From: Verrucomicrobiales bacterium
Lineage (GTDB): Bacteria > Verrucomicrobiota > Verrucomicrobiia > Verrucomicrobiales > DEV007
Assembly: GCA_029213195.1 (NCBI GenBank)
Contig: JARGNI010000025.1
Location: 1 to 64,000, forward strand
Reading direction: 5' to 3'
Length of the DNA stretch: 64,000 nucleotides
The notes below the pieces were generated by a model. The model saw nothing but the letters and a program-made list of their open reading frames with translations, was not told the DNA's origin and did no database searches. The position numbers and the translations under genes are program-made. Below are positions 4,024 through 49,787 of this stretch, in pieces. How positions within the stretch are numbered: the first letter of the stretch is position 1; each line of letters starts with the position of its first letter.

Positions 4024-5331
4024 ATGTCGAGGTATCTACTCATTTCCCTTTGTATCGGTGTCGGGGCTGCGCTCATCGCCTCCCTTGCGCAACTTCTCGG
4101 TGCCTTCAGCCCCGTCAGCGAAGCACTGCGTGAAGCCTATACTGTTCAGGGCATTTTCCTCCATGAGGATATCATTCGGCTGACCTGGCTCGAGATCCTG
4201 CTCACCACGCTGGTCGCTCTCGGTGTGGCTTGGTCCATTGTCGATCTACCTGGCTTGGCGCAGAAAGGGGTGGTTGTGCTTTGCAGTCTCATCCTCATCA
4301 GCGTGCTTTCCCCTGTGCTGGCGCTGCATCATTGGCTTTTTGATCCTTCCTCGAGCCTCCTCGCCGTCCTTCTAGCAGCGCTCGGAGGATACGCCTTTTC
4401 GAGAACGACTCTGGGAATGCGAAGAGGTCGAATGATCGAGGTCCTAGGGAATCGAATCTCCCACGACAAGTTTCTCGCGTTGCTGCAGCGCCCCGAAGAG
4501 CTTCCCCTGGAGGCGAGACGAGTCGAGGTGTCGATCTTGTCCTGCCGGCTCCTCAATCACGCAGAAGTCCAAGAGAAACTTTCTCCGAAGGACTGGGTGG
4601 CGATCTCGAATTTCTTCCTGCGAAGCGTCGAGACTTTCCTGATTCGAGAGGGGGGGTACCTGGACGAAGCGCATCCCGAGAGTCTTCGGGCCTGTTTCGG
4701 ATTGCTCGATGAGAATTCTTCGCATGAGGAGGAAGTCTGCCGCGTTGCCTTGCTTCTCCAGTCGCGGCTTCGCAATCTCAGTCGAGAGTGTGAGACTCGG
4801 TGGTTCCAGTCTCTCGAGTTCGGAATCGGAATTGAAACGGGAGAAGTGACGGCAGGGGTTTTCGGAGATCGAATTTCCGCGAGACTCTCTGCAGTGGGGA
4901 AAGTCAACGAGCTGGCGTTTCGGCTCGCTGCGGCAAATCCTCCGACGGTGGAGGGAATCGTCATGGGGCCAGAACTGTTTTCGAGGGTTAGGGAGGTCTT
5001 CGCGCTGCGCCCGCTTGAAATGTTCTATGATCCTGCTCGAGGCCTTCTTCATGAGGTCTACCATCTCCTGGATCGAAAGGAGACCTTTTCCAGCGAGGCG
5101 CAGGAGGGGCTGGACCTCTACTGGAAGGGAATCATCTATCTGCGGGAGCAGCGTTATGAGGATGCACTGAATGCCTTTTCCCGGAGCCGTGCGGTGGCTG
5201 GATACGACCCCACCGTGGAATACTTTGTCGGACGCATGCAGGAGGAGCTCTCACTAACCGGTGCTTCGGAGCTGGAGACCCGGGATGAAAGCCCCGCTCG
5301 TGGACATGCGCGGCTCATCAACCGACTCTAG
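4024..5331 (+). CDS. Membrane protein with degenerate class III cyclase domain and TPR-like tail
   Basis: Four predicted membrane helices (about 5-27, 57-75, 82-103, 111-127) precede a cytoplasmic region resembling the class III adenylate/guanylate cyclase fold (about 166-330). The best-preserved part is GIETGEVTAGVFGDR...SAVGKVNELAFRLAAA (about 269-304), matching the family's GIHTG...G..G...YTVIGD.VN.AARL block. The two metal-binding aspartates appear lost: the first motif reads VSILSC and the GDxxxAxFG motif reads PESLRACFG. A short TPR-like segment follows (about 345-410). It is probably a non-catalytic cyclase homologue used in signalling or assembly. The ATG at 4024 was chosen because it begins directly before the first membrane helix; the frame is open further upstream. 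recR starts 21 bp downstream. Confidence 0.75.
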   Translation: MSRYLLISLCIGVGAALIASLAQLLGAFSPVSEALREAYTVQGIFLHEDIIRLTWLEILLTTLVALGVAWSIVDLPGLAQKGVVVLCSLILISVLSPVLALHHWLFDPSSSLLAVLLAALGGYAFSRTTLGMRRGRMIEVLGNRISHDKFLALLQRPEELPLEARRVEVSILSCRLLNHAEVQEKLSPKDWVAISNFFLRSVETFLIREGGYLDEAHPESLRACFGLLDENSSHEEEVCRVALLLQSRLRNLSRECETRWFQSLEFGIGIETGEVTAGVFGDRISARLSAVGKVNELAFRLAAANPPTVEGIVMGPELFSRVREVFALRPLEMFYDPARGLLHEVYHLLDRKETFSSEAQEGLDLYWKGIIYLREQRYEDALNAFSRSRAVAGYDPTVEYFVGRMQEELSLTGASELETRDESPARGHARLINRL

Positions 5332-44118: not shown

Positions 44119-45009
44119 CTAACGTCGGAGAGAGCGCGATTCGATCGCGTAGCCTGCCGCGGTGATCGAAACGGCCTGAGTGTCGACGATGGAGATTTTT
44201 CCATTTTCCAGCGTTTCCAGCAGGGCCACCTCATGCAGGCGGATCAGTCCGGACACCGGGTCGATTTCCAATTGTCCGGCTTGCGCCGCGGTCACAGGGA
44301 AGTCGGGTTTCGATTTCGATGAAAACGACGCATTCTCCGCCGTCAAGAAGGCCGTGTTGGCTTCACTGGGATCCGTCCGCAGGCGGATCTCTTCGGCAGA
44401 GATGAGAAACGAACGATATCGCAATCGCACATTTCCGGAGTAGACGAGATGCTGGGATTCCTGGGAGACGGAATCCGAATCGATTTCGATTCGTTCTTCT
44501 CGGGACACGGAATCCTCCGAAGCAAGCATGACGGGTATGGGATAGGTCCATTCGGCGTCGAGGGTGGCTGCCTTCGCACCCTCGGGAATCGGTGAGAGCG
44601 AACCTGGAGAGGCAACGATGACATCGACTTCGCCGCGATAGCGAGTGCCAGGTCGCGTGGTCCGTGAGGCCGCAGCTGCCGAGTCGGACGTCTTGGCTTC
44701 GTCCGGAGTGAACCTCACTGAAAACTGAATCTCCGAGTGAGCCCGCTCAGAACTGCGGTAAGGAAAAGAACTGAGGACGCCGATGAGAAGGAGGAGAAGA
44801 GCCGCCACCGAGCCCACCCCAACCGTCCAGGTGCGCCAGTTCAAGCTAGGGGGTGGGGTTGGGACAATCGTCTTTCGCTCCACGGTGGCCATCAAAATGG
44901 AATCGACGAGTTCGGTATCGGCCCCTTTACCGTTTCTCGCGAATTCCTGCAGAGCACTGTGAACCAGGGCCTCGTCGGGAGAGATGTCGGAGGAAGAATT
45001 TGATTTCAT
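44119..45009 (-). CDS. Membrane protein with LptA/OstA-like domain, candidate anti-sigma factor
   Basis: A cytoplasmic N-terminus (1-58), one membrane helix (about 60-81) and a periplasmic region of 296 residues in total. The C-terminal part (about 175-296) has the OstA/LptA pattern: ERIEIDSDS, LVYSGNVRLRYRSFLISAEEIRL, TAENASF, QAGQLEIDPVSGLIRL and the late GKISIVDTQAV segment. Such domains carry LPS in the Lpt machine. It overlaps the upstream ECF sigma gene by 4 bp (ATGA), the usual arrangement for an anti-sigma factor. It could sense lipid or LPS transport state. No zinc-finger anti-sigma motif is seen. Confidence 0.75.
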   Translation of the reverse strand: MKSNSSSDISPDEALVHSALQEFARNGKGADTELVDSILMATVERKTIVPTPPPSLNWRTWTVGVGSVAALLLLLIGVLSSFPYRSSERAHSEIQFSVRFTPDEAKTSDSAAAASRTTRPGTRYRGEVDVIVASPGSLSPIPEGAKAATLDAEWTYPIPVMLASEDSVSREERIEIDSDSVSQESQHLVYSGNVRLRYRSFLISAEEIRLRTDPSEANTAFLTAENASFSSKSKPDFPVTAAQAGQLEIDPVSGLIRLHEVALLETLENGKISIVDTQAVSITAAGYAIESRSLRR

Positions 45010-45590
45010 GATTCGTGAGATGGGTAAACGGAGGGCCCCGATTTATGTTCGAGGCATTGCTTGAGAGACTCGCGTGCTCTTTGAAGACGTTTGCGGATCG
45101 CAGCAGGTCCCAACCCGAGTTTTGCAGAAGCCTCTTCGCTGGTGCAGCCTTCGAAATACGTCACTTCAATCACCTCCCGCAATCCTTCGGGAAGTCTGCG
45201 GAGGCAGTCCTCCAAAGCGGCAAAGAGATCACTGGATCCTTCGACCCGGGCGGTTTGCCAGGCTGCGATATCGGAATCGATCTGCGCGATTTGGGTGTCG
45301 GTGAGAGTGTATCTCTTGTTCTTTCGCAGCCACTCCCGCCACTTGTTTCGAACGATGCCTCGCATCCAGGTCGCAAAATCACGGGTGACGTCGAATGTCC
45401 TGACCTTGTCGTAGGCGATGATGAAGGCATCCTGTACAATGTCGCGAGCGGTCGCCTCGTCTTGGGTCAGCGATTGCGCATACACCACCAGCTCCCGGTG
45501 ATGCAGACGCACCAGTTCGCTGAAGTCCTGATCCGTTGTTGGATCAAGTTCACGTTTCTGGGAAGGATTACTGATAGCGACAATCTGCAT
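45006..45590 (-). CDS. ECF-type RNA polymerase sigma factor
   Basis: An ECF sigma factor of 194 residues. Region 2 includes FSELVRLHHRELVVYAQSLT, the core-binding TARDIVQDAFIIAYDKV and the promoter-melting DFATWMRGIVRNKWREWLRK. Region 4 is LPEGLREVIEVTYFEGCTSEEASAKLGLGPAAIRKRLQRARESL with its helix-turn-helix. It overlaps the downstream LptA-like membrane protein by 4 bp, which suggests the membrane protein is its regulator. Confidence 0.93.
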   Translation of the reverse strand: MQIVAISNPSQKRELDPTTDQDFSELVRLHHRELVVYAQSLTQDEATARDIVQDAFIIAYDKVRTFDVTRDFATWMRGIVRNKWREWLRKNKRYTLTDTQIAQIDSDIAAWQTARVEGSSDLFAALEDCLRRLPEGLREVIEVTYFEGCTSEEASAKLGLGPAAIRKRLQRARESLKQCLEHKSGPSVYPSHES

Positions 45591-45824
45591 CGAACACTAC
45601 CTATTGACCAGTGATTCCGAAATTGTGACCAGACTTTGACCTCTTTTCTCAGTGGATAAGTTGAGCTAATCCTAAAAAGAGGGATTTGGGGAGAGGGGAG
45701 AGAAATGATCGGGTCGGCCGTGTCTTGCCATTAGAGAAATTAATACACGCGATTTCGATGGATTTTCCTTTTGCCTCGCATTTCGCCTTCTTCTACACTT
45801 GGTGGTACAGCTCTCGAGTTCTCT

Positions 45825-48119
45825 ATGAAATTCTTCTCCCGCGTAATTCTCGCGACCACTCTTTTCGGGGCGACTGCCATGGCGCAGGACGCCGATATCC
45901 ACAAAGGAAACTGGCTTTCCTGGCGAGGACCTCTCCAGACGGGAGTCAGCTTGGAAACATACGAGAAATTCGCTTTTCAAGAGGAGCCGGTTTGGACGGA
46001 CGCGATTTCCGGTCAGGGTGTGCCGGTGATTTTCAACGGGAGGATCTATTCCTGGGGATATCGTGGAACGGGACCGGACCTGGAAGAGGTCGTCCAGGCG
46101 CGTGACGAAAAGACTGGAGATATCATTTGGGAGCGTGCGACCCACGACTTTCTTTCGGACACGATTTACAATCGCTACTCCATCGGTGCAGTCGCAGTCG
46201 ATCCCGAAACCGAGAATGTGATCGTTGCCACCACCTACGGATTGGTCACCTGCTACTCGAAAGACGGCGACCAGATCTGGCAGGTATCGATGATGGAGCG
46301 CTTCGGTCGACTCACCTTTCCGAACGGACGCGCGGGTGCTCCCATCATCGACGGAGACATCTGCATCATTCGCGGGGTTACCAGTTATTGGGGCGCCGAT
46401 GGCCCAGCGAGAGACCGCTTTTTCGGATTCGACAAGAAGACGGGCGAGCTGCTCTGGTCTTCTACCCCCGGAGTAGGGCCTCCCTACCTGAAGGATACTT
46501 CCATGGCGACCCCTTACCTCGACACGAGGGACGGGAAGCGTGTCTTCTATGTGGCGACCGGTTGTGGAAACATTGCCTGTGTCAATGTTATGGATGGAAC
46601 ACCGCTCTGGCGTTTCCAACTTTCCAAGGGTGGGATCAACAGTTCGCCAGTGCTCTACAAGGACTCCATCATCGCGATTCACGGAAAGGAAAATCTCGAT
46701 ACCACAGAGATGGGGCGGATGATCCGTCTCGATATCCCGGATGATCTTGACAACACTGGTGGCGAAATCGACCCAGCGCAAAAGGGTGCTCCGCGCATCA
46801 GCCAGGATCATGAGATGTGGAGAACGACCCTCGAGATGTTCACCAGCTCTCCTCTTCTTCATGATGGGAAAGTTTACCAGATGGTGAAAACCGGTTCCCT
46901 CTTCTGTGTCGATGCCGAGACCGGGGAAATTCTCTGGGAGGAGAAACTCGCGAACTCGCAGCTTCATGCTTCGCCCGTCCTTGTGGATGGACGCCTTCTC
47001 ATTTCCACCTTTCCGGGGGACTTTTACGTGATCAACGTCACTGGGGAAAAACCCGTCATCGAGCACAAACTGGCCCTCGAAGGCAACGGCATTGGATCTC
47101 CCTCCGTCTGCAATGGTCGCATTTATGTCCACACCACCGAGAAGCTCTATGCCTTTCAGGCAGCCGAAGGAGCTATCGAATACGCGGCAGCCCCTGAGGT
47201 TGCGATGCCGGAAGCTGGTGAGGCGGTGAAGGTTCTCCCGGTTCCGAGTGACGTGCTTCTTCGCTCTGGCGAAAGCGCGACAGTCAAGCTTCGCACGCTT
47301 GACGCAAACGGGGTCCCCGTCGGCACGGTCGAGTCGGCGGGCTGGGCGACATTCATTCCGCCAACGGCTCGGGTCAAAGCGACCATGGACGCGTCCTTCG
47401 AAGGAAACACCATCAGTGCGGGCGACGACGCGGAACTCTCTGCTGGTGCGTGGAAAGCCACCTCCGGAGACCTCAGCGGGATTCTTCGAGGACGAGTCAT
47501 TTCCGACCTGCCTTACAAAGAGGATTTCGAGGCATTTGAACTGGCAGCCAAGCCGGGAGGTTCGGTTTCCGGGCGAGAGTTCGACTTTCCTCCGTTGCCC
47601 TGGATCGGTGCCCGTCTCAAGTGGGAAGTCATTGAGAACGAGGGGAACAAAGTCCTCTCGAAGACTCTCGACCGTGTTCTCTTCCAGCGATCGCTTTCTT
47701 TCATTGGTGATCCCGACCTCTCCAACTACACGATGCAGGCGGATGTGATGACGGATGGAAATCGCCGAATCAAATCCGTGATCGGATTGATCAATCAGCG
47801 TTACATCATCTCTCTGGTGGGCAACGCCAATATTCTCGAAGTCAGTTCCAACCACGAGCGGGTCAAAGAGTCCGTGCCTTTCCCCATCTCTGCAAACAAG
47901 TGGTATACCCTCAAGACTCGCGTCGACATCGGCGAAGATGGCACGGGAACCATTCGCGGAAAAGCCTGGGTCAAAGGCGAACCTGAACCGGAAGCCTGGA
48001 CCATCGAGGTCGAGCACAAGAATGCTCACCAGAAAGGCGCTCCTGGAATCTTCGGGTTTGCCCCGCAGAGCCAGAAAACCGTATTCATCGACAATATCAA
48101 CATCACCCCGAACGAGTAG
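45825..48119 (+). CDS. Secreted PQQ-like beta-propeller protein with C-terminal domain
   Basis: A signal peptide (about 1-18, ending AMAQ) precedes a beta-propeller of PQQ-binding-like repeats, visible as EKTGDIIWER, DKKTGELLWS, MDGTPLWRF and DAETGEILWEEKL. The region after about residue 450 is a different domain, ending in a concanavalin-like segment (residues about 620-764, GFAPQSQKTVFIDNINIT). The adjacent gene encodes a related propeller. Such PVC proteins are mostly uncharacterised. The ATG at 45825 begins the signal peptide; the frame is open upstream to 45771. Confidence 0.85.
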   Translation: MKFFSRVILATTLFGATAMAQDADIHKGNWLSWRGPLQTGVSLETYEKFAFQEEPVWTDAISGQGVPVIFNGRIYSWGYRGTGPDLEEVVQARDEKTGDIIWERATHDFLSDTIYNRYSIGAVAVDPETENVIVATTYGLVTCYSKDGDQIWQVSMMERFGRLTFPNGRAGAPIIDGDICIIRGVTSYWGADGPARDRFFGFDKKTGELLWSSTPGVGPPYLKDTSMATPYLDTRDGKRVFYVATGCGNIACVNVMDGTPLWRFQLSKGGINSSPVLYKDSIIAIHGKENLDTTEMGRMIRLDIPDDLDNTGGEIDPAQKGAPRISQDHEMWRTTLEMFTSSPLLHDGKVYQMVKTGSLFCVDAETGEILWEEKLANSQLHASPVLVDGRLLISTFPGDFYVINVTGEKPVIEHKLALEGNGIGSPSVCNGRIYVHTTEKLYAFQAAEGAIEYAAAPEVAMPEAGEAVKVLPVPSDVLLRSGESATVKLRTLDANGVPVGTVESAGWATFIPPTARVKATMDASFEGNTISAGDDAELSAGAWKATSGDLSGILRGRVISDLPYKEDFEAFELAAKPGGSVSGREFDFPPLPWIGARLKWEVIENEGNKVLSKTLDRVLFQRSLSFIGDPDLSNYTMQADVMTDGNRRIKSVIGLINQRYIISLVGNANILEVSSNHERVKESVPFPISANKWYTLKTRVDIGEDGTGTIRGKAWVKGEPEPEAWTIEVEHKNAHQKGAPGIFGFAPQSQKTVFIDNINITPNE

Positions 48120-48173
48120 GATTCGAGATATCGATTCACTCTTCCCATCCCTGATCTCCCAACGAAAGAAACC

Positions 48174-49787
48174 ATGAAAATCATGCTCGAATCCATCCGG
48201 CCTGCGCTCTTTGGCGCGGCCCTACTTATCGGAATGCCGCTGGCTCAAGCCGACGAATCTGCACCGGGCGGCGGTGAATGGCCTCAGTGGGGTCGTGACG
48301 CCAGCAACAACATGATGTCACCGGCTAAGGGTCTCCCGATTGACTTCACCTCCGGTGAGTTCAATGACGAAGGCAAAGTGGACGGTGCCAAGCACCTGAA
48401 GTGGGTCGCCGAAATGGGCTCTCAGGCTTATGGAACCGCAACGGTCAAGGACGGCCGTGTCTTTATCGGGACAAACAACGAGAAACCTCGGCTCGATGGT
48501 GTGACCGGTGACAAGGGAATCATCATGTGCTTCGACGAGAAGTCTGGTGAGCTCCTCTGGCAGTTTTCGATTCCCAAGCTCGAAGCGGGGAAAGTCTCGG
48601 ACTGGGAGTTCCTCGGAGTTTGTTCTTCCGTCGTCGTGGATGGAAAGTATGGGTATGTGATCACGAACCGTGGCGAGGTGATCTGTCTCGATGTCTATGG
48701 GATGAGCGACGGAAACGACGGCCCTTTCCAAGACGAGGCAAAGTATCAGAACGGCGGTCTGGAGAAACTCGCGGGGGCTGAGCCTGCTGAGCTTTCCGAC
48801 AAGACCGCGGACATCGTCTGGGGATACGACATGCGAAGTGAGCTGGGAGTTTTTCCTCACAACATCACCTCGAGCTCGGTCGTCATTTCCGACAAGTATG
48901 TCTATGCCAGTACCTCCAACGGAGTGGACTGGTCGCACATCAATGTGCCGGCACCCTACAGTCCCTGCATTGTCGCTCTCGACAAGGAGACCGGCGAACT
49001 GGTGGCGGAAGAGGCCAGTGGGATCGGTGAGAACATCATGCACTGCAACTGGTCTTCTCCGGCTTTTGCGAAGGATCTCGCCGGAAATCCAACCCTGGTG
49101 TTCGGTGCCGGAGACGGATTCACCTACGGATTTCATGGTGACCAGTTCGTCGAGGAAGAAGATGGAGGCGAGACTTTCAATCTCTTCAAGGAGCTCTGGA
49201 AGGTAGACTGCTGTCCGAAGGAATATCGCTTCGACGAAGCCGGTGAGCCCATCAAGTATGCGACTTACCCTGGCCCGTCCGAGATCATTTCTTCTCCCGT
49301 GGTCCACAATGGCAAGGTTTACGCAGCGATTGGACAGGATCCCGAGCACGGCGAGGGCGTCGGAGCGGTGACCTGCATCGATCCAAGCAAGGGAAGCGGT
49401 GAAGAGGCCATCGTCTGGCAGTTCAAGGGAATCGGACGGACCATTTCCACGCCATCCGTAGCCGACGGGTTCGTCTACATCGCTGACTACTCGGGGCGTC
49501 TCTTCTGCCTCGATGCCGAGACCGGTGAGAAGTATTGGGAGCACGATACCCTCTCTCACATCTGGGGATCCACCCTCGTCGTGGATGGCAAGGTCCTCCT
49601 TGGGAACGAGGATGGCGAGTTGGTCATCCTCAAGGCCGGCAAGGAATACGAGGAACTCAACGTGGTTGGCTATCCTGCCCCCATCTACGCAACCCCGATC
49701 GTCGCGAACAGCACGCTTTACGTCATGACCCAGACTCACCTTTACGCCTACGAGATGGGTGGTGATTCGGTCGCTGCGGCAGAGTGA
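48174..49787 (+). CDS. Secreted PQQ-like beta-propeller protein
   Basis: A signal peptide (about 1-26, ending AQA) is followed by a propeller of 537 residues with repeats such as DEKSGELLWQFSIP, DKETGELVAEEAS, DAETGEKYWEHDTL and VIVWQFKGIG-like segments. The start GGGEWPQWGRDASNNMMSP is common in this family. A vicinal Cys pair occurs in KVDCCPKEYRF; whether it corresponds to the Cys-Cys of PQQ alcohol dehydrogenases cannot be judged. It lies 54 bp after a related propeller gene. Role uncertain: dehydrogenase or binding protein. Confidence 0.85.
   Translation: MKIMLESIRPALFGAALLIGMPLAQADESAPGGGEWPQWGRDASNNMMSPAKGLPIDFTSGEFNDEGKVDGAKHLKWVAEMGSQAYGTATVKDGRVFIGTNNEKPRLDGVTGDKGIIMCFDEKSGELLWQFSIPKLEAGKVSDWEFLGVCSSVVVDGKYGYVITNRGEVICLDVYGMSDGNDGPFQDEAKYQNGGLEKLAGAEPAELSDKTADIVWGYDMRSELGVFPHNITSSSVVISDKYVYASTSNGVDWSHINVPAPYSPCIVALDKETGELVAEEASGIGENIMHCNWSSPAFAKDLAGNPTLVFGAGDGFTYGFHGDQFVEEEDGGETFNLFKELWKVDCCPKEYRFDEAGEPIKYATYPGPSEIISSPVVHNGKVYAAIGQDPEHGEGVGAVTCIDPSKGSGEEAIVWQFKGIGRTISTPSVADGFVYIADYSGRLFCLDAETGEKYWEHDTLSHIWGSTLVVDGKVLLGNEDGELVILKAGKEYEELNVVGYPAPIYATPIVANSTLYVMTQTHLYAYEMGGDSVAAAE

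Follow-up and report, generated by a model that had tools for sequence, protein, structure and literature searches.

Why should the gene of an ECF sigma factor be coupled to that of a membrane protein whose outer part resembles the lipopolysaccharide (LPS) transport protein LptA/OstA, and could such a protein report on envelope lipids to the cell that carries it? This question is raised by a locus in the window, i.e. the whole 64,000-nucleotide stretch of Verrucomicrobiales DNA that was analysed. An earlier note on this DNA had described a sigma gene coupled to that of a protein with one transmembrane (TM) segment, and both open reading frames were found at the positions it gives, on the minus strand, the second one (hereafter the partner) with a single clear hydrophobic segment at residues 62-80. 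The two genes and the parts of the partner are as follows.

45006 to 45590, minus strand: ECF sigma factor gene, 194 aa (Sigma70_r2, Sigma70_r4_2 and TIGR02989 matches)
44119 to 45009, minus strand: putative membrane anti-sigma factor with an LptA-like outer domain, 296 aa
44881 to 44979, minus strand: pair of predicted helices at the N-terminus, residues 11-43, putative sigma-binding module (AlphaFold2 model)
44770 to 44838, minus strand: transmembrane helix, residues 58-80 (AlphaFold2 model and hydrophobicity)
44707 to 44742, minus strand: beta strand directly past the TM helix, residues 90-101 (AlphaFold2 model)
44134 to 44508, minus strand: LptA/OstA-type beta domain, residues ~168-292 (sequence profiles and predicted fold)

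The reading that we prefer, and to which we give slightly better than even credence, is a sigma/anti-sigma switch in which a periplasmic jellyroll of the LptA/LptC type would act as the sensor of an envelope lipid or of the Lpt bridge. The sigma frame holds Sigma70 regions 2 and 4 only, within ~190 aa, which identifies it as an ECF sigma factor; against TIGR02989, the Rhodopirellula/Verrucomicrobium ECF family, it scores 117.8 bits and thus misses the subfamily threshold of 124.55. Region 4 stops at residue 176 of 194 and is followed by no C-terminal regulatory extension, which sets it apart from ECF41. The coupling of the two genes was borne out: the sigma stop and the partner start overlap as ATGA in the window and in 18 of 25 orthologous pairs, a count that is favoured by the script's choice of the start codon nearest to the sigma stop.

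The same fusion was sought in relatives, as the note had proposed, and a sigma factor with an LptA-like, one-TM partner proved to be kept genus-wide. A sigma search with open reading frame extraction gave 25 pairs from 33 genomes of one Verrucomicrobiales genus, known here from metagenome-assembled genomes (MAGs). Searching with the partner protein at E≤0.01 was positive in 27 of 56 genomes, 24 of them within the 33 genus genomes; the pairs of G001 and G029, missed in this way, were recovered via the sigma search, and the partner of G002 is cut by a contig end. Eight of the 33 genomes stand outside the 25 pairs (G003, G008, G010, G015, G016, G017, G027 and G031). G031 was left out with a sigma split over two contigs (its partner is L007), G027 with a partial sigma and G010 with a sigma fragment only; both G010 and G016 are >90% complete. 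The count also excludes loci L057-L060 and a second pair in G004 (L028). The sigma of the window is 52-67% identical to its 24 genus orthologues, and partner identity is 19-31%, a divergence so fast that a conserved ligand is not evident. An LptA-like partner also occurs in 14 of the 35 loci L061-L095, several of which are the same contigs as those of the genus genomes, and those records of this sigma clade that bear a name are MAGs labelled Verrucomicrobiales, Akkermansiaceae, Verrucomicrobia or Verrucomicrobiia. A single-protein search of genome contigs found no relative. A class-wide profile search of 286 genomes (a subset of a larger group), with up to 8 candidates per genome scored, gave a match in at least 20; those 20 matches comprise the genome of the window itself, 16 LptA-like proteins (beta domain, no sigma in the fetched stretch) and three sigma partners that match by the N-terminus only.

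Several sequence comparisons point to LptA as the relative of the outer part. PF03968 (LptD_N) matches partner residues 174-265 with E 2.1e-6 and 28.4 bits, above the gathering cut-off of 20.4, and the same family is matched at E≤0.1 by 21 of the 25 orthologues. A profile built from the 25 partners has LptA as its best sequence match in the PDB (E 7.3e-6). Matches of this strength are beyond chance. The LptA model TIGR03002 matches with E 3.7e-7, yet its 30.1 bits stay below the equivalog cut-off of 71.7, and the partner differs from LptA also in being TM-anchored and in having an N-terminus common to sigma partners. PF06835 (LptC) gave no match to the partner at E≤1 and none among the 25 members at E≤0.1. 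Weak hits to further Pfam families in this set are Cupin_3 in four members (best E 0.0064), DUF6457 in one (E 2e-4) and Rv2743c in one.

The predicted fold agrees with the profiles. An AlphaFold2 model made with an alignment of 25 rows as input shows helices at residues 11-26 and 31-43, a TM helix at 58-80, a strand at 90-101, a linker of ~50 residues of low confidence and then the beta domain. Over the whole partner the mean pLDDT is 72.1 and the pTM 0.55; block means reach 80-96 across residues 171-290 of the beta domain and a modest 54-78 for the two N-terminal helices. Foldseek placed LptA (2r19) at the top with E 1.9e-5. In VIA-align 2 the first model matched LptA 2r1a with Z 13.1 (rmsd 2.9, 117 aligned) and LptC 6mit_C with Z 12.2 (rmsd 2.7, 123 aligned, range 88-292), the latter alignment extending up to the strand past the TM helix. 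A second model, led by the orthologue L038 and built from the same 25 sequences, gave Z 12.7 for LptA (rmsd 3.2, 115 aligned) and Z 11.6 for LptC 6mjp_C (rmsd 2.5, 118 aligned, range 94-293). Of the top 30 VIA rows (Z ≥8.3), 29 bear the title of an Lpt protein or complex; the remaining one, 4q35, is titled only as a membrane protein, and we take it to be LptD. The first unrelated row has Z 6.0. The earlier note had staked its idea on a beta-jellyroll of the OstA type in the periplasmic part, and this is what both AlphaFold models return, each with LptA ranked first. The assignment of residues ~168-292 to a predicted LptA/OstA-type domain thus holds, and the partner is like LptA, LptC and the N-terminal domain of LptD both in predicted fold and in sequence profile.

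With a TM helix and a strand right after it, the predicted layout of the partner is as LptC-like as it is LptA-like. This brings in another explanation, in which the jellyroll would insert into the Lpt bridge in the manner of LptC and signal, through protein contact, that the bridge is assembled, rather than the presence of free lipid. The order of TM helix, strand and jellyroll favours it, as do the Z scores of 6mit_C and 6mjp_C, which are LptC chains of LptBFGC complexes, but the missing PF06835 match speaks against it, and 6mjp_C superposes on the first model with an rmsd of 15.3; we put its chances at about one in four. In the genome of the window, LptC (PF06835) and LptA are encoded next to each other and to an ABC ATPase; this genome further has two LptF/LptG proteins and a frame of 780 aa that matches PF03968 and is, by size, the probable LptD. 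Given these separate components, the partner is an additional protein of the OstA type, linked to a sigma factor, and a docking part not needed for transport could serve in sensing. As a replacement of LptC the partner was ruled out, since a PF06835 LptC adjoins LptA in the same genome. The ATPase beside lptC-lptA (L214:7900-9669, contig C11), LptB by position, carries an N-terminal extension of ~360 residues ahead of the ATPase domain, rich in Pro, Ala and Lys in the part seen.

A further question regards the origin of the inner part of the partner. The N-terminal module aligns with the N-termini of the partners of sister sigmas (hhalign) with E 1e-11 across 28 columns, and with E 6.1e-11 in a rerun in which the best of 40 column-permuted controls reached 0.0029. 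In the sister profile (A5), 13 rows had been selected among the 20 loci L076-L095 and two more were found by the family profile; conversely, a profile of the LptA-type N-terminus (E≤0.01) matches open reading frames in 12 of these 20 loci. The beta domain aligns with the profile A4, built from LptA-like proteins of this class, with E 3.6e-13, and with E 5.1e-13 in a rerun against a best control of 0.055 (again 40 column-permuted), values that are favoured because 11 of the 12 A4 rows were found by the family profile itself; the Pfam, NCBIfam and PDB matches are independent of that profile. The partner therefore looks chimeric by sequence comparison, its N-terminus like that of the sister-sigma partners and its C-terminus like the free LptA-like proteins of the class. 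In a tree of the sigma factors, calculated without L088 and L095, the 26 sigmas with an LptA-type partner lie on one side of a single branch with support 80/81 (80% of bootstrap trees), and none of 500 label shuffles was as low. L074 stands next to these sigmas, and its partner has the N-terminal module with no LptA-type match and an outer part that is YfbK-like by eye. The tree fits a single origin of the LptA-type partner, for which one exchange of the outer domain is the simplest reading.

Six sister partners were scanned, and their common N-terminal module had no Pfam match. Their outer parts are four YfbK/vWA proteins (one with TPR), one alpha-2-macroglobulin (A2M) and one galactose-binding-like (F5/8-like) domain that is below the cut-off. 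With L077, L085, L086, L090 and others, Verrucomicrobiota and Lentisphaerota thus harbour a modular family of sigma partners with one short N-terminal module and varied outer parts. A module held in common next to differing outer parts suggests that the sigma-facing part stays constant while the outer part is exchanged, and the LptA-type partner fits this picture of Verrucomicrobiota anti-sigma factors. It could also mean that the OstA fold is a mere scaffold, for another ligand or for a shape sensitive to proteolysis, with no relation to LPS. The very different outer domains of the sister partners, which speak for diverse inputs in the family, and the fast divergence of the partner itself are in line with this explanation; the homology specifically to LptA, and to the LptA-like proteins found elsewhere in the class, argues against it, and we put it, too, at about one in four.

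Does the partner hold the sigma factor at all? There is a likeness in shape to the CnrY/CnrH pair of metal resistance, in that two N-terminal helices are predicted in the partner, which by shape makes it more class II than class I. According to PMC7406223, a class I anti-sigma domain (ASDI) is a four-helix N-terminal domain, and the two helices of CnrY, a class II anti-sigma domain, wrap around sigma. Both models of the partner have two helices, of modest confidence, before the TM segment and not four, which places it outside class I. No Pfam anti-sigma family was matched by the partner N-terminus, either in the window protein (E≤1) or in the 25 members (E≤0.1); the FecR family (PF04773, which we take to be the FecR domain) was absent from the same matches, and RseA from those of the window protein and the 25 members. 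No anti-sigma structure appeared among the rows of the fold lists, but as the beta domain fills these lists, the absence carries no weight. Only one Lys or Arg is found in the 15 residues before the TM helix and two in the 15 after it, so that an N-inside orientation is not favoured and the charges do not help in fixing the orientation in the membrane. The missing anti-sigma match, the short N-terminal region and these charges would suit an accessory protein of the Lpt system that shares a transcript with the sigma gene without being an anti-sigma factor. Against this stand the conserved coupling and an N-terminal module that is common to sigma-adjacent sister partners without any OstA domain, and we regard the accessory role as improbable. 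Judging by this homology and by the pairing of the genes, the partner N-terminus would bind the sigma factor. The partner would then belong to a known kind, the membrane anti-sigma factors, with the LptA-like outer domain as the new part. No anti-sigma factor with an LptA/OstA domain was found by title or abstract in the open-licence PMC literature, and within that literature the architecture appears undescribed.

As for the targets of the sigma factor, one promoter can be proposed from the sequence upstream of its own gene.

45604 to 45629, minus strand: GTCACA-N14-GGTCAA, proposed as an ECF promoter for autoregulation, 13 bp ahead of the sigma start codon

GTCAC stands ahead of the sigma start in all 25 loci and GTCACA in 23 of them. 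It is followed after 14 bases (19 loci), 15 (five) or 13 (one) by a -10-like element, which lies 11-19 bases before the chosen start codon and agrees with CGTCAA at three to six of six bases, the 13-base case (L044) being poor. The motif persists where the upstream neighbour differs and is weaker in L045 and L046. The presence of both elements in all loci, regardless of the neighbour, makes it likely that the sigma autoregulates its own operon. For ECF41, PMC3426412 gives a -35 motif TGTCACA and a -10 motif CGTC with a spacer of n16, and a fused C-terminal regulatory extension. The elements here (GTCACA and SGYC) are similar, whereas most loci have N14 between them and the sigma has an anti-sigma-like partner in place of the extension. 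The exact pattern GTCACA-N14-SGYCAA occurs once in the 5.9-Mb genome, at the sigma promoter, and a reversed-pattern control also once, so that the weight of the promoter lies in its place and conservation, not in its rarity. A position weight matrix (PWM), trained on these same promoters with that of the window included, scored the sigma promoter at 25.0 and the next best site of the window at 12.4; 12 Markov-shuffled copies of one window strand had no site of ≥18.

Beyond the operon the picture is less clear. Allowing up to two mismatches (and one extra base per half), the genome of the window has 81 places against 44 in the control. Among 32 sites picked by hand from these and one from a looser-pattern search, the sigma promoter scored 25.5 and the next, which is inside open reading frames, 19.6. 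Across the 33 genus genomes the looser pattern matched in 32, with 79 sites (17 of them sigma promoters by our count) against 92 in the reversed control; as this is no excess, we claim no regulon beyond autoregulation. In two families with TM segments by eye, PWM values of ≥20 were reached by two of five scored members (L159) and of ≥18 by three of 29 rows (L166), against a null drawn from the same loci with the true sites included; these sites are partly circular, four of the five coming from genomes whose motif match had led to the family and only L272 (18.4) being independent. The member of these families in the genome of the window had no site. That genome has a site of PWM 16.3 (L215) 28 bp before a gene that is receptor-like by eye. 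In G004 a near-perfect sigma promoter (PWM 25.2; L206, ~2837-2865, contig C15) lies directly before an open reading frame of ~1000 aa, on a contig that also carries a paralogous sigma pair. In the stretches scanned in the genome of the window, no strong sigma promoter was present upstream of lptC/lptA, the probable lptD or lptF/lptG. Near lptC-lptA there is a weak promoter-like site of PWM 14.6 (L214 ~4956-4984, minus strand, contig C11); it precedes, by 33 bp, a frame of 769 aa on the other strand that is Ser/Thr kinase-like by eye, and it also falls inside an 844-aa frame on the opposite strand. The missing promoter upstream of the lpt genes opposes a simple circuit in which LPS flux controls LPS export, and is a further point for the OstA fold as a mere scaffold.

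Food for thought is how the switch that we prefer would work. The parts of it that were computed are the coupling, the predicted fold, the two-part ancestry, the genus-wide conservation and the shared promoter; we infer the binding of sigma, the membrane orientation, the ligand, the release by proteolysis and any targets beyond the operon. LptA, LptC and LptD dock to one another through edge strands. By analogy the N-terminus should be the holder of sigma and the jellyroll the sensor: the two-helix module would keep the ECF sigma at the inner membrane, and the single TM helix would link it to the periplasmic jellyroll. The most likely input would be an amphipathic lipid of the envelope (LPS, or else LPS escaped from the Lpt bridge) or an attachment to the bridge via those same edge strands. 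A change in occupancy might then alter the conformation of the partner or its exposure to proteases and free the sigma, which would first of all raise its own operon. What the earlier note described as a sigma factor with a one-TM partner and an outer domain of LptA/OstA fold thus stands, on profiles, predicted fold and genus-wide conservation, while its idea of direct LPS sensing by the jellyroll is plausible.

Faults in LPS traffic of Gram-negatives are known to be sensed mainly by multi-protein pathways, e.g. RseA/RseB and Rcs. PMC6358824 describes a case of such multi-protein sensing: LPS that is off-pathway from Lpt binds RseB and lifts the protection of RseA, which is freed for proteolysis, LptA opposes this, and the scheme is presented there as a model needing further study. 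The pair described here resembles RpoE/RseA/RseB of E. coli in having an ECF sigma held, as we propose, by a one-TM anti-sigma factor. It differs in that no RseA family is among the Pfam matches of the partner, and in that LPS binding in E. coli is on the separate RseB, whereas here an LptA-type domain is within the anti-sigma-like protein itself. A bolder thought, for which we would allow a chance of roughly a quarter, is that the anti-sigma factor itself belongs to the Lpt bridge, as a tethered protein like LptC whose jellyroll lies edge to edge with LptA or LptC and is filled by LPS in transit. If true, LPS flux through the bridge would be read in one protein, with no RseB-like go-between. 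A transport-bridge domain inside an anti-sigma factor would make a very short sensor, and a hypothesis that can be tested on one protein.

On the other side of the promoter, two beta-propeller genes of the PQQ_2/BamB type (window 45825-49787, plus strand) diverge from the sigma operon; between genomes their products are about 61-88% identical, far above the anti-sigma-like protein. The stretch that separates the sigma gene from the divergent propeller gene contains a pair of 15-bp inverted repeats, ATTAGnnnnnCTAAT, at 45656-45670 and 45730-45744. As an operator of the sigma gene this pair was set aside, since its occurrence follows that of the divergent propeller gene: 17 of the 25 orthologous loci have a close pair, all with a propeller gene within ~450 bp, and in seven other loci both the pair and a propeller gene at such a distance are missing (the L042 sequence runs into a contig end). 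The repeats of the pair are 72-74 bp apart; L053 has two inverted repeats with a different spacing. The pair has the look of an operator of the propeller genes that has been conserved.
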